Origin: Acinetobacter sp. 10FS3-1 | Lineage (GTDB): Bacteria; Pseudomonadota; Gammaproteobacteria; Pseudomonadales; Moraxellaceae | Direction of reading: 5' to 3' | Length of the DNA stretch: 64,000 nt | Assembly: GCF_013343215.1 (NCBI RefSeq) | Contig: NZ_CP039143.1 | Coordinates: 1,488,001 to 1,552,000 of the forward strand | The notes under the pieces: model-generated | The model's input: the letters and a program-made list of their open reading frames with translations, nothing else | Database searches by the model: none | What the model was told of the DNA's origin: nothing | Shown here: one piece after another, positions 22,445 through 25,041 of the stretch | How positions within the stretch are numbered: position 1 is the first letter of the stretch | Layout: every line of letters starts with the position of its first letter | Program-made: the position numbers and the translations under genes

Positions 22445-22540
22445 CGCTGCACCACAATCCATTTATGAAATGTCAATAGTTTCTGATAAGAACGTATTTA
22501 TACGTGATTAAAACCATTTTAAAAAATAAGGATAAGCACT

Positions 22541-23071
22541 ATGTCGAATGATAATTTTGATCGTGATGAAATAAAGAACTCTCCAAAGGAAGTCCGGGAT
22601 GATTTAAATGCCGATCCAATTACCGGTGAACCCGGTGCTCATCCGGTGGGGACAGGTGTCGGTGCTGCCGGTGGTGCAGCAGCAGGTGCAGCTGTTGGCG
22701 CTGCAGGTGGACCTGTCGGAGCAGTCGTCGGCGGCGTAGTGGGGGCAGTCGTCGGAGGTCTTGCTGGTAAAGAAGTCGGTGAAGCGATAAATCCGACTGA
22801 AGAAGCCGCTTACTGGCGTGAAAATTCAGTACATACCCCTTATTATTCAGAAGCACGTAGCACTTATAGTGATCTGGATTATGACCGTGACTATGACATA
22901 GCTTATCGTGTGGGTTATGAAAATCGCGGGGCTTATGATGCCAATACCCGTTTTGAAGATGCCGAGTCTGATCTGAAGCTCAAATGGGAACAAATGAAAG
23001 GTGAATCACGTCTGACCTGGGAACAGGCAAAATATGCAGTACGTGATGCATGGAACCGCGTGACACGCTAA
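22541..23071 (+). CDS. Glycine-zipper protein of unknown function
   Basis: This 176-residue protein has a polar N-terminus, a long Gly/Ala/Val-rich glycine-zipper stretch at about residues 37-80 (GAAGGAAAGAAVGAAGG, VVGGVVGAVVGG), and a charged, aromatic C-terminal half (DLDYDRDYDIAYRVGYE). The last 35 residues (LKWEQMKGESRLTWEQAKYA) recall the CsbD-like stress-protein pattern. There is no signal peptide. A general stress or envelope-associated role is possible, but the function is not known. A good spacing from AATAAGGATAAG supports the start. Confidence 0.8.
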   Translation: MSNDNFDRDEIKNSPKEVRDDLNADPITGEPGAHPVGTGVGAAGGAAAGAAVGAAGGPVGAVVGGVVGAVVGGLAGKEVGEAINPTEEAAYWRENSVHTPYYSEARSTYSDLDYDRDYDIAYRVGYENRGAYDANTRFEDAESDLKLKWEQMKGESRLTWEQAKYAVRDAWNRVTR

Positions 23072-23096
23072 TTCTGCTTGTTTAGCAACGAAATGC

Positions 23097-23144
23097 TGCA
23101 AAATTGACAAGACCTGCTTGGATTCAGTGCTTGTCAATTTTGCA
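23097..23144. other. Perfect 15-bp stem-loop after the glycine-zipper gene
   Basis: Arms TGCAAAATTGACAAG (23097-23111) and its exact complement (23130-23144) flank an 18-nt loop, 25 bp after the stop codon. No T tract follows on either strand, so it is not a classic terminator; it may be a Rho-assisted end, an mRNA stabiliser or a mobile-repeat remnant. Confidence 0.5.
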
Positions 23145-23215
23145 CTGAGTTGACCAATAATCGGATTAATAAGTAAAAATCATCTAACTCATAAAGATTT
23201 TTTTGTATTTTAGGC

Positions 23216-23244
23216 TTGTCAAACCGGTTCAGAGCGCGTATTTT
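23216..23244 (+). promoter_or_regulatory. Sigma-70 promoter of the aroG leader
   Basis: TTGTCA (23216-23221) and TATTTT (23239-23244) are separated by 17 bp. Transcription would start near 23251 and give a leader of about 340 nt before the DAHP synthase start codon. Confidence 0.6.
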
Positions 23245-23263
23245 AAGTTAAGAACCACATTTT

Positions 23264-23332
23264 ATGAACAGACATAAACATGTTAAAGCAACCTATCATT
23301 TCAAACGTTTATTTTTATTTTTGGCAGTTTAG
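23264..23332 (+). CDS. Candidate first leader peptide (22 aa) upstream of aroG
   Basis: A short ORF begins about 13 nt after the predicted transcription start. Its 22 residues start MNRHKHVKATYHF and end in FLFLAV, with three Phe and several Leu codons near the end. It precedes a Rho-independent terminator by 50 nt, the layout of an attenuator leader. It lacks a good ribosome site, so translation is uncertain. Confidence 0.4.
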   Translation: MNRHKHVKATYHFKRLFLFLAV

Positions 23333-23364
23333 ATAATTGCCTGAATGCGTTTGGGCGATGAAAA

Positions 23365-23413
23365 GGTTGCCCACCAGTTGATACCTGATCGGCAACCCTG
23401 ATCAGGTTTTTTT
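23365..23413 (+). terminator. Rho-independent terminator with competing helix in the aroG leader
   Basis: The terminator stem is ACCTGATC (23383-23390) with GATCAGGT (23400-23407) followed by TTTTTTT. GGTTGCC (23365-23371) can instead pair with GGCAACC (23391-23397), which forms the terminator loop. The order of the four strands makes the two helices mutually hindering, as in attenuators. It lies about 180 bp upstream of the structural gene. Confidence 0.7.
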
Positions 23414-23448
23414 ATGCATGTAATTTAACAATTTTTTCGGAGACAGCC

Positions 23449-23553
23449 ATGACCAACTTTAACTATTCATACTTTAGCAACTTTTATTGGTCTTATTTTA
23501 GCCAGTTAGTAACTCTTTCGATTTCTTCGATCAGACCCATAACGCTCAAATAA
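23449..23553 (+). CDS. Aromatic-rich leader peptide of the DAHP synthase gene (34 aa)
   Basis: A 34-codon ORF with ribosome site CGGAG 7 nt ahead of its ATG. Its first 17 codons include four Phe, four Tyr and one Trp (MTNFNYSYFSNFYWSYF), a density expected only of a regulatory leader that senses charged aromatic tRNAs. It ends 37 bp before the DAHP synthase start. Part of its coding sequence (CAACTTTTATT, 23478-23488) is exactly complementary to 23549-23559 at its stop codon, and a TGGGACTG/CAGTCCCA hairpin (23558-23578) abuts the downstream ribosome site. Confidence 0.82.
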   Translation: MTNFNYSYFSNFYWSYFSQLVTLSISSIRPITLK

Positions 23554-23557
23554 AAGT

Positions 23558-23578
23558 TGGGACTGAGTAGCAGTCCCA
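23558..23578 (+). promoter_or_regulatory. Hairpin next to the aroG ribosome-binding site
   Basis: TGGGACTG and CAGTCCCA form a perfect 8-bp stem with a 5-nt loop whose last base is the first of AGGA, the ribosome site of the DAHP synthase gene. It has no T tract and so should not terminate transcription; translational control is more likely. Confidence 0.55.
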
Positions 23579-23590
23579 GGATGAAAAGTC

Positions 23591-24640
23591 ATGAATACCG
23601 CAAATACATTAGTAAAAAATCAAACTGAAACAATTCTAAGCTTACCCCAGCAGCTTAAGCAGCACTTGCCACTGTCTCCTCAATTGACTGCTCAGGTGGC
23701 TGAACATCGCCAAGTTATTCAAAATATTCTAACAGGTAAGGATCAGCGCTTGCTGGTGATTACCGGACCCTGTTCCATTCATGACGAAGCTTCTGCACTG
23801 GATTATGCAAAAAAATTAAAACAGCTCCAGACTCAAGTTGCCGATCAGATTTTTCTGGTCATGCGGGCCTATATTGAAAAACCACGTACCACCGTTGGCT
23901 GGAAGGGCTTTCTCTACGATCCAAATCTGGATGGCTCTTCTGATATGCAGCTTGGCTTGGAAAGATCACGTGCACTTTACTTAAATATCCTTGAGCTGGG
24001 TTTGCCGATTGCCTCAGAGGTCTTGAGTCCTATGGCAACGGTATATTTCGATGATCTTTTGGCTTGGGGTGCGATTGGGGCTCGCACCAGTGAATCCCAG
24101 ATTCATCGTGAAATTTCCAGCTATATGCCTTATAGCATTGGTTTCAAAAATGGTACCGATGGTTCTATTCAGATTGCACTGGATGCCATCCAGTCCGCGT
24201 CTAAGCCACATCAGTTCTTAGGCATGAGCCAGTCGGGGCTGCCTTGCATGATTCACTCAGCGGGTAATCCTCAGGCTCATCTTATTCTGCGTGGTTCAAA
24301 TAATGGACCAAATTACCAGTTGGCCGACATTGAAAAGATCAAGGTCCAGCATGCAGCAGAGTTGCCCGCTTTGGTAATTGATTGCAGTCATGGAAACAGC
24401 TCGAAAAATCCATTACTACAGCCGCAAGTGCTGCATACGATTGTGACAGAACGTCTGAAAACCAATGTGCGCGGAGTGATGCTGGAAAGCCATTTAATAG
24501 ATGGTAACCAGAAAATTTCTACGGAGATGCAATATGGCCAGTCGGTGACTGATGGCTGTCTGGGCTGGGAGAAAACCGAGCAGCTTTTACTGGAAGTGGC
24601 TCATACTCTGGCATCGACTTGTTTAAAACGTAGCGCTTAA
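23591..24640 (+). CDS. aroG: 3-deoxy-7-phosphoheptulonate (DAHP) synthase, class I
   Basis: The 349-residue enzyme condenses phosphoenolpyruvate and erythrose-4-phosphate in the first step of aromatic amino acid synthesis. Signatures are VITGPCSIHDEASALDYA, RAYIEKPRTTVGWKGFLYDPNLDGS, GARTSESQIHRE, SGLPCMIHSAGNP, LVIDCSHGNSSK and the metal site near GVMLESHLIDGNQ. The isozyme (Phe-, Tyr- or Trp-type) cannot be told from sequence alone; the leader has codons for all three. It is expressed from the long leader described above and ends at a Rho-independent terminator. Confidence 0.93.
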   Translation: MNTANTLVKNQTETILSLPQQLKQHLPLSPQLTAQVAEHRQVIQNILTGKDQRLLVITGPCSIHDEASALDYAKKLKQLQTQVADQIFLVMRAYIEKPRTTVGWKGFLYDPNLDGSSDMQLGLERSRALYLNILELGLPIASEVLSPMATVYFDDLLAWGAIGARTSESQIHREISSYMPYSIGFKNGTDGSIQIALDAIQSASKPHQFLGMSQSGLPCMIHSAGNPQAHLILRGSNNGPNYQLADIEKIKVQHAAELPALVIDCSHGNSSKNPLLQPQVLHTIVTERLKTNVRGVMLESHLIDGNQKISTEMQYGQSVTDGCLGWEKTEQLLLEVAHTLASTCLKRSA

Positions 24641-24648
24641 ATTCAGAG

Positions 24649-24678
24649 AAAAGGACTTTCCCGAGGAAAGTCCTTTTT
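24649..24678 (+). terminator. Rho-independent terminator after aroG
   Basis: AAAAGGACTTTC (24649-24660) pairs with GAAAGTCCTTTT (24666-24677) around a 5-nt loop, followed by T. The rest of the 453-bp spacer to 25093 is AT-rich without a visible gene. Confidence 0.92.
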
Positions 24679-25041
24679 CGTTTAGCGCTTGATCGGCTTT
24701 ATAAAAACAAGATAAATATGACATCTATCACCCCTTTAAAATAATATTTTTATTGTCAGTAAATTGTTTTGCCTTCTGGCACAAAGCATTGCACAATTCG
24801 TAAAAAATCATTGATTCAAATTTTTTATTGATTTATTACCGCAGATTTTCCGCCAAGTATTAAGTATCAAGGCCTGATAAAGCCGTTTAATCAGTAGGAT
24901 TTAACTGGTAAAAAAACCAAGCTAGCAGACAGTTATTCTCAAGAAGAGCAAAAATCATTGTAAGTGCTGATCTAAGTAAAACTTCTCCTATAAGGTGTCC
25001 TGCCATTTATGTACACCCTTAAAATCCCGGCCTAAACTTCT

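Follow-up and report, generated by a model that had tools for sequence, protein, structure and literature searches.

What does a short reading frame crowded with aromatic codons do directly ahead of a DAHP synthase gene? An earlier note on this Acinetobacter locus had described such a leader upstream of aroG, with a hairpin behind it, and had favoured control by translation or by Rho over the classical mechanism of attenuation. We analysed the locus within a stretch of 64,000 nucleotides from Acinetobacter sp. 10FS3-1 (the window, whose positions are used throughout; the leader features and aroG itself lie on its + strand) and compared it with the corresponding loci across the genus. The gene occupies 23591-24640 behind a directly read ribosome site, AGGA (23578-23581), and encodes a class I DAHP synthase of 349 aa (NF009395, 477.9 bits; TIGR00034, 405.4 bits; both above cut-off). 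The PDB chains nearest to the product by sequence, 6agl and 6agm, are Tyr-sensitive, a relation of sequence likeness only. aroG looks monocistronic. Just past its stop a hairpin with a T-run can be read by eye (AAAGGACTTTCCCGAGGAAAGTCCTTTTT, 24650-24678), and the gene upstream of the locus (22541-23071) contains a glycine-zipper-like stretch and has only sub-threshold NCBIfam matches.

Two aromatic leaders upstream of aroG

The reading frame described in the earlier note, here termed LP2 (MTNFNYSYFSNFYWSYFSQLVTLSISSIRPITLK), has the dimensions that were claimed for it. Read directly and present in the ORF list, it comprises 34 codons at 23449-23553 behind a ribosome site, GGAG (23439-23442, likewise read directly); codons 1-17 include four Phe, four Tyr and one Trp, and 37 nt separate its end from the aroG start at 23591. 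The two strands of the window contain 1,076 ATG-initiated ORFs of 12-60 codons, and of these LP2 alone has at least nine aromatics in its first 17 codons; it is still unique among 2,913 ORFs once GTG and TTG starts are allowed.

Farther upstream, beyond the stretch that the earlier note covered, lies another leader, LP1 (MLKQPIISNVYFYFWQFR, 23280-23336), which has a weak ribosome site. It is the sole ORF of the same 1,076 with at least six aromatics in seven codons, and one of two among the 2,913 that include GTG and TTG starts. A putative promoter, TTGTCA-17-TATTTT (23216-23244), precedes it. The promoter scan found 5 such sites in the region where shuffles predict 3.4, a number not clearly above expectation; of 129 distinct upstream regions, 61 have the TTGTCA/TATTTT pair as their best, and 120 have some loose sigma-70-like pair.

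Both leaders are conserved throughout the genus. Our sample comprised 149 genomes, 143 with this aroG and the other six with only its paralogue; 143 loci were analysed after removal of one duplicate record, and related genomes are counted separately unless clusters are stated. The LP1 motif [FY][FY]W[QHY][FY] is present in 143/143 loci. LP2 is present in 142/143 with its aromatic positions kept as amino acids. Six extra genomes outside all alignments (L180-L185) contain LP1, the terminator described below and LP2 in 6/6.

Across 109 distinct LP1 genes, the Trp and the Tyr two residues before it are invariant (109 each; the Tyr codon is TAT in 87 and TAC in 22), and between these two 107 genes have Phe and 2 have Tyr; at the last aromatic, two residues after Trp, 89 have Phe and 20 have Tyr. 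The use of both Tyr codons and the exchange of Phe and Tyr at these positions indicate that conservation is of amino acids, not of letters. The first 26 residues of LP2 contain 5-11 aromatics (median 9), with Trp, Tyr and Phe at fixed places; the Trp column is Trp in 105 of 114 distinct genes. The claim that this leader reads all three aromatics holds for most of the genus, since LP2 is conserved with Phe and Tyr, plus Trp in 136/142 loci, the other six being without Trp.

The ribosome sites of the two leaders differ. A Shine-Dalgarno (SD) match is poor at LP1, where 14 of 129 distinct upstream regions pass a 3-base criterion, and strong at LP2, where 139 of 143 entries (one record counted twice) match at least four bases, a count favoured by the script that picked LP2 starts because it preferred those with an SD-like triplet. 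Weak initiation on LP1 may set a low basal readthrough.

The 3′ end of LP2 varies in its own ways. Its final codons (23545-23553 in the window) are conserved by letter, with CTC in 90/114 and AAA in 102/114 distinct genes and then mostly TAA; CTC is kept although Leu has six codons, and we found no partner or role for these codons. In 129/142 loci 31-45 nt separate the LP2 stop from aroG. In five divergent loci (L146-L150), which retain LP1 and the terminator, LP2 runs 25 nt past the aroG start; because of this overlap, the spacer and its hairpin are absent there. In one draft genome (L098) LP2 is broken by a frameshift, with LP1, the terminator and a hairpin in the spacer all present.

A probable attenuator between LP1 and LP2

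Classical proteobacterial attenuators, such as the trp, phe, his and ilv leaders, combine runs of the regulating codons with alternating hairpins and, ahead of the structural gene, a T-tract terminator. Scanning identified an intrinsic terminator between LP1 and LP2, ACCTGATC-ggcaaccct-GATCAGGT followed by seven T residues (23383-23413), and a series of alternately complementary GGCA/TGCC blocks extends into it from the LP1 Trp codon: segments A, B, C, D and E′ and the arms E and F. Segment A, the GGCAG of the Trp-Gln codons (23323-23327), pairs with B (TTGCCTGAA, 23337-23345); B pairs alternatively with C (TTTGGGCGA, 23350-23358), C with D (GGTTGCCC, 23365-23372), and D with E′ (GGCAACC, 23391-23397), the candidate antiterminator partner of D, which lies in the terminator loop. 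The region 23330-23420 folds with z = -3.7. A leader of pathway codons and a T-tract terminator between leader and gene, both marks of a classical attenuator, are present at LP1, and folding alone predicts an antiterminator that depends on ribosome position and excludes the terminator. For the system as a whole, the earlier preference for translation or Rho over the classical mechanism therefore gives way to LP1, its alternative hairpins and the T-tract terminator directly upstream. An Rfam scan of 22500-24800 returned two chance-level matches to unrelated families, far below gathering scores, and no leader or T-box family.

In the mechanism that we propose for this stage, transcription would begin upstream of LP1. 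When Tyr, Phe or Trp tRNA is uncharged, a ribosome would halt on the Tyr-Phe-Tyr-Phe-Trp codons and mask segment A; B:C and D:E′ could then form, the terminator would be blocked and RNA polymerase would continue. A ribosome at the LP1 stop would mask B, leaving C:D and the terminator to form, and an untranslated LP1 would form A:B, again with the terminator.

We followed these states by folding the free RNA before the last terminator arm exists, assuming a ribosome footprint that extends 15 nt beyond the A-site codon's first base. For the window's own sequence, D:E′ has a probability of 1.0 when the A site holds any of the codons Tyr, Phe, Tyr and Phe and 0.99 when it holds Trp, compared with 0.24-0.65 at the six codons before the aromatics, 0.53, 0.31 and 0.36 at the next three codons after them, and 0.02 once the stop is reached. 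Placing a 14-nt footprint at the LP1 stop gives 0.95 for C:D and 0.05 for D:E′, and without a ribosome A:B reaches 1.0 and D:E′ 0.12. Averaged over the genus (up to 105 leaders), the antiterminator probability stands at 0.95-0.96 on the aromatic codons, 0.89-0.91 on the six that precede them, and 0.87, 0.76, 0.74 and 0.70 after them, the last value being that of the usual stop position. In a separate test of 104 leaders, which left out 21 loci where strict string motifs were not found, it is 0.65 at the stop and 0.61 without a ribosome. In these folding models the contrast of the switch is smaller on genus average, and the sharp range of responsive codons belongs to the window's own sequence. 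Once the full-length terminator is present it wins in every ribosome state (0.98-1.00), so that stage 1 would rest on co-transcriptional order as a kinetic switch. Kinetic switching is normal for attenuators.

The pairings are conserved. The terminator motif occurs in 142/143 loci, the remaining one (L052) being a G-U variant. In an alignment of 62 representative LP1 attenuators (A1), A:B is paired in 96.1% of cells, C:D in 96.5%, B:C in 93.2%, the 5-pair and 2-pair parts of D:E′ in 91.4% and 99.2%, and the terminator in 99.6%. The terminator helix shows compensatory changes, C-G having become U-A in 9 rows and, in 2, U-A having become G-C, and two pairs of B:C are changed on both sides (G-C to A-U in 9, A-U to U-A or U-G in 5). 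Counted by cells changed on both sides, both structures exceed all 500 shuffles (terminated, 11 versus 1.7; antiterminated, 16 versus 7.5). Counted by pairs changed on both sides, neither stands above shuffles: the terminated structure has 2 versus 1.2, with 138/500 shuffles reaching 2, and the antiterminated one 3 versus 2.5, with 243/500 reaching 3. Further pair types show no excess in the terminated structure (9 versus 9.2 in shuffles) and number 15 versus 12.7 in the antiterminated one (15/500 shuffles). The core GGCA/UGCC pairs of the attenuator are nearly invariant. RNAalifold recovers B:C and the terminator from A1 unaided, and adds a pairing of A with D that is absent from the proposed model.

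A covariance model of the LP1 attenuator only, built on the RNAalifold structure including A:D (R1), delimits its distribution. Under stricter filters R1 matches 39/149 genomes of the family, all of them Acinetobacter and once each; these are 39 of the 41 sampled genus genomes, the two without a match (G029 and G076) having only the paralogue. None of 108 genomes from 15 other genera of the family matches, and within the order the window's genome is the only match of 145 (92 genera). That genome has one R1 match, and another at E = 8.8 was taken as chance. The paralogue, a second DAHP synthase 47% identical to aroG and 26 kb away, lies just outside the window (G000:C1:1485133-1486134), and an ORF scan found no leader like LP1 or LP2 in front of it. 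Among 33 loci of paralogues and other DAHP synthases (9 from the genus, 19 from 12 other family genera and 5 named records from outside the family), a loosely aromatic-rich ORF occurs in 7, none by eye like LP1 or LP2. In 15 other family genera we found at most one DAHP synthase match per genome, always of the paralogue type, indicating that the leader-controlled copy is peculiar to Acinetobacter in this sample.

LP2, the spacer hairpin and access to the aroG start

LP2 and its spacer hairpin are the second half of this larger device. The perfect hairpin claimed for the spacer is there: TGGGACTG (23558-23565) is fully complementary to CAGTCCCA (23571-23578) across the loop AGTAG, and it touches the aroG ribosome site as described, the last A of the 3′ arm being the first A of AGGA. 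Of the 142 loci, 6 with a spacer shorter than 15 nt or an overlap were set aside and 136 scored for stems; the hairpin ends 11-17 nt upstream of the aroG start in 130 of these. GGACTG/CAGTCC, at times shortened or lengthened, is the usual stem, and stems changed on both sides include AGACGC/GCGTCT (L063), GGGCTG/CAGCCC (L061), GGGCAG/TTGCCC (L133), GAGCA/TGCTC (L145) and GGGT/ACCC in three loci. Judged from these sequences, compensatory changes maintain the hairpin genus-wide. In 113/136 loci no more than 5 of 100 letter shuffles reach its best stem, and 23 miss this mark; five loci (L136, L137 and L139-L141) have no real hairpin.

Several roles for this hairpin were considered and set aside. 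It is not a terminator, as the terminator scan found no + strand T-run behind it, in agreement with the earlier note. An anti-hairpin between AGACCC at the 3′ end of LP2 and the 5′ arm was rejected, since in L063 the arms changed together to AGACGC/GCGTCT and AGACCC stayed. Control by hiding the aroG ribosome site, which its position had suggested, found no support either: in the folds, SD access stays about the same wherever the ribosome stands on LP2 (0.55 free, 0.58 stalled and 0.57 at the LP2 stop). In our proposal the hairpin would probably shorten the loop and hold the aroG ribosome site single-stranded.

The start codon behaves differently from the SD in these folds, which covered LP2 to position +45 of aroG in 128 distinct leaders (identical leaders merged; 11 loci with a spacer below 20 nt or an overlap omitted). 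Mean access of the start-codon region is 0.27 in ribosome-free RNA, 0.60 when a ribosome stands midway along the aromatic run and 0.65 when one stands at the LP2 stop. It climbs from about 0.4 to 0.6 as the ribosome reaches codons 5-6 before the LP2 Trp and is constant thereafter. In 95/128 leaders the free RNA pairs the aroG start codon with codons 1-20 of LP2 at a mean probability above 0.5; the start codon is paired elsewhere in 19 and open in 14. In the six extra genomes (L180-L185) a stalled ribosome raises start-codon access in 6/6. Access is higher with the ribosome at the LP2 stop than with it stalled in 87/128, so that dwell time must make the difference between the two.

The predicted partners of the start differ between lineages. 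Among the matches listed, sister species pair TATTCATACTTT, the Tyr-Ser-Tyr-Phe codons, with AAAGtCATGAATA (probability about 0.86 in L009), other lineages pair Tyr-Trp-Ser or Tyr-Trp-Phe codons with AAAGACCAATG (about 1.0 in L027), and L146 and L147, where LP2 overlaps aroG, pair Tyr-Trp-Thr-Leu-Thr codons with the first aroG codons. In the window the candidate anti-start strand is the Tyr-Ser-Tyr-Phe stretch at 23464-23475, a choice that follows mainly the folding of sister species, and its candidate partner is the aroG start region AAAGTCATGAATA (23585-23597). Pairing is weak there: the top fold is a weak local hairpin (about 0.25) competing with the LP2-start pairing, and start access is 0.38 free versus 0.58 stalled.

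Shuffle controls argue for this pairing. Access rises to 0.45 when the first 20 LP2 codons are dinucleotide-shuffled (real lower in 104/128) and to 0.36 when synonymous codons are permuted (real lower in 102/128). Tested by cluster, the real value is lower than shuffled in 47/61 clusters (p = 8.6e-6), 24/37 (p = 0.024) and 9/12 (p = 0.09). Exchanging LP2 between clusters gives a modest effect with 61 clusters (p = 0.0125 by fold, 0.008 by duplex), a non-significant one with 37 (p = 0.14 and 0.07) and a failure with 12 (p = 0.69, own duplexes weaker than swapped ones); the 12-cluster set had placed 113/128 leaders in a single cluster and was replaced by the greedy sets of 61 and 37. RNAalifold on the LP2-aroG alignment (A2) found no pairs and no consensus structure, probably because loop length varies, and stems are therefore listed per sequence. 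With the shuffle controls set against swap tests that range from negative to modest, LP2-start pairing is, on these models, probable for several clades and not established for the genus as a whole.

Readings of the tandem leader

Taken together, the locus probably carries two ribosome-stall sensors in series on one mRNA upstream of aroG. We are highly confident that stage 1 is a classical type of aromatic attenuator, one without an Rfam match, and consider it likely that LP2 is a second ribosome sensor; on the folding models, the chance that LP2 works at the level of translation is about even. RNA that reads through the first terminator would present this second aromatic leader. Unoccupied, its aromatic codons would in many species base-pair with the region of the aroG start, and a ribosome held on them would leave the aroG start codon open, so that scarcity would raise translation as well. 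A more tentative proposal, which we put somewhat below even chances, is that the same three aromatics are read twice per mRNA, by LP1 in transcription and by LP2 in translation, with the LP2 sensor codons serving as antisense of the aroG start. The codon on which the ribosome starves might then, as an equally tentative point, be the very sequence that it must cover to open aroG. Possibly, though we would not lean towards it, lineages use different LP2 codons as anti-start: Tyr-Ser-Tyr-Phe, Tyr-Trp-Phe or Tyr-Trp-Ser, and Tyr-Trp-Thr-Leu-Thr in L146 and L147.

Other accounts of LP2 divide over how it would act. From LP2 to aroG the + strand shows no intrinsic terminator, so for this stage control by translation or by Rho is sensible, and here the preference of the earlier note stands. 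On the Rho account, which that note suggested, ribosome position would set the loading of Rho on a rut-like, C-rich and G-poor 3′ half of LP2, stopping transcription before or within aroG. Averaged over 137 entries, C makes up 26.0% of this half and G 10.8%, the window as a whole having 21.5% and 23.0%; yet the C minus G excess of the window's LP2 is reached by 5.5% of equal-length + strand stretches and is not extreme, and a ribosome stalled on the early aromatic codons would expose the stretch, giving most Rho action in starvation, the opposite of the need, unless structure masks it. We regard Rho control as unlikely. On a plain coupling account, ribosomes that complete LP2 would open the spacer hairpin and initiate again on aroG, so that LP2 would boost aroG translation and its own aromatic codons would not be sensed. 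The short distance from the LP2 stop to aroG with a hairpin in between, the 25-nt overlap in five loci, and a start region that opens as much or more with a ribosome at the LP2 stop as with a stalled one would all suit it, but it leaves unexplained why LP2 is so rich in aromatics and keeps Trp, Tyr and Phe at fixed places, and we judge it unlikely.

Alternatively, LP1 might be the sole regulator and LP2 a duplicated leader that lost its terminator and is conserved as a passive remnant. Tandem aromatic leaders could, as a conjecture, come from duplication, LP2 lacks a terminator, and its frame is broken in one genome; against this, LP2 persists in 142/143 loci with conserved aromatic positions, its hairpin is kept by compensation, and by eye the two peptides are unlike outside the aromatic run, which makes a remnant very improbable. 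Chance origin of the short ORFs and hairpins is a negligible prospect: AT-rich spacers yield Phe/Tyr-rich ORFs, and the promoter-like sites are not clearly above shuffles, but the aromatic density is unique in the window and the genus-wide presence with covariation refutes it.

If both stages of the serial arrangement work, entry into the aromatic pathway is controlled, genus-wide, by two serial ribosome sensors, which would give a steeper or wider response than a single attenuator. A short leader RNA upstream of aroG would then be predicted in transcriptomes, and serial codon reading would be open to direct test; the genus includes the model Acinetobacter baylyi. In the open-licence PMC papers searched we found no description of the leader; older comparative-genomics work on attenuators of proteobacteria (Panina 2001 and Vitreschak 2004, both in the reference list of PMC1262725) lies outside that search. 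The main text of an A. baumannii RNA interactome study (PMC11472050) does not mention aroG, leader or premature.

Set beside known systems, LP1 fits the plan of the classical attenuators; it differs from them in having no Rfam leader match, in reading all three aromatics before a DAHP synthase, and in having a further leader stage downstream of it on one mRNA. The tna and corL leaders are Rho-dependent systems. Like LP2, they have a leader ORF without an intrinsic terminator and a C-rich stretch downstream of the codons; for LP2, however, the expected direction of Rho action is opposite to the need, and such action is a candidate only. In ermB (PMC8274638), two leader peptides act by translational attenuation, and the likeness to LP1 and LP2 lies in two leader ORFs before one gene, with stalling on a leader controlling the next ORF. 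The erm leaders sense macrolides, whereas in the present system a transcription terminator follows LP1 and ribosomes would stall for want of charged aromatic tRNA. Bacillus subtilis vmlR is reported to combine transcription and translation attenuation on one gene (PMC9226507), as in our proposal; vmlR is an antibiotic-induced ABC-F resistance factor of a Gram-positive bacterium, unlike aroG, a biosynthesis gene with two codon-specific leaders.
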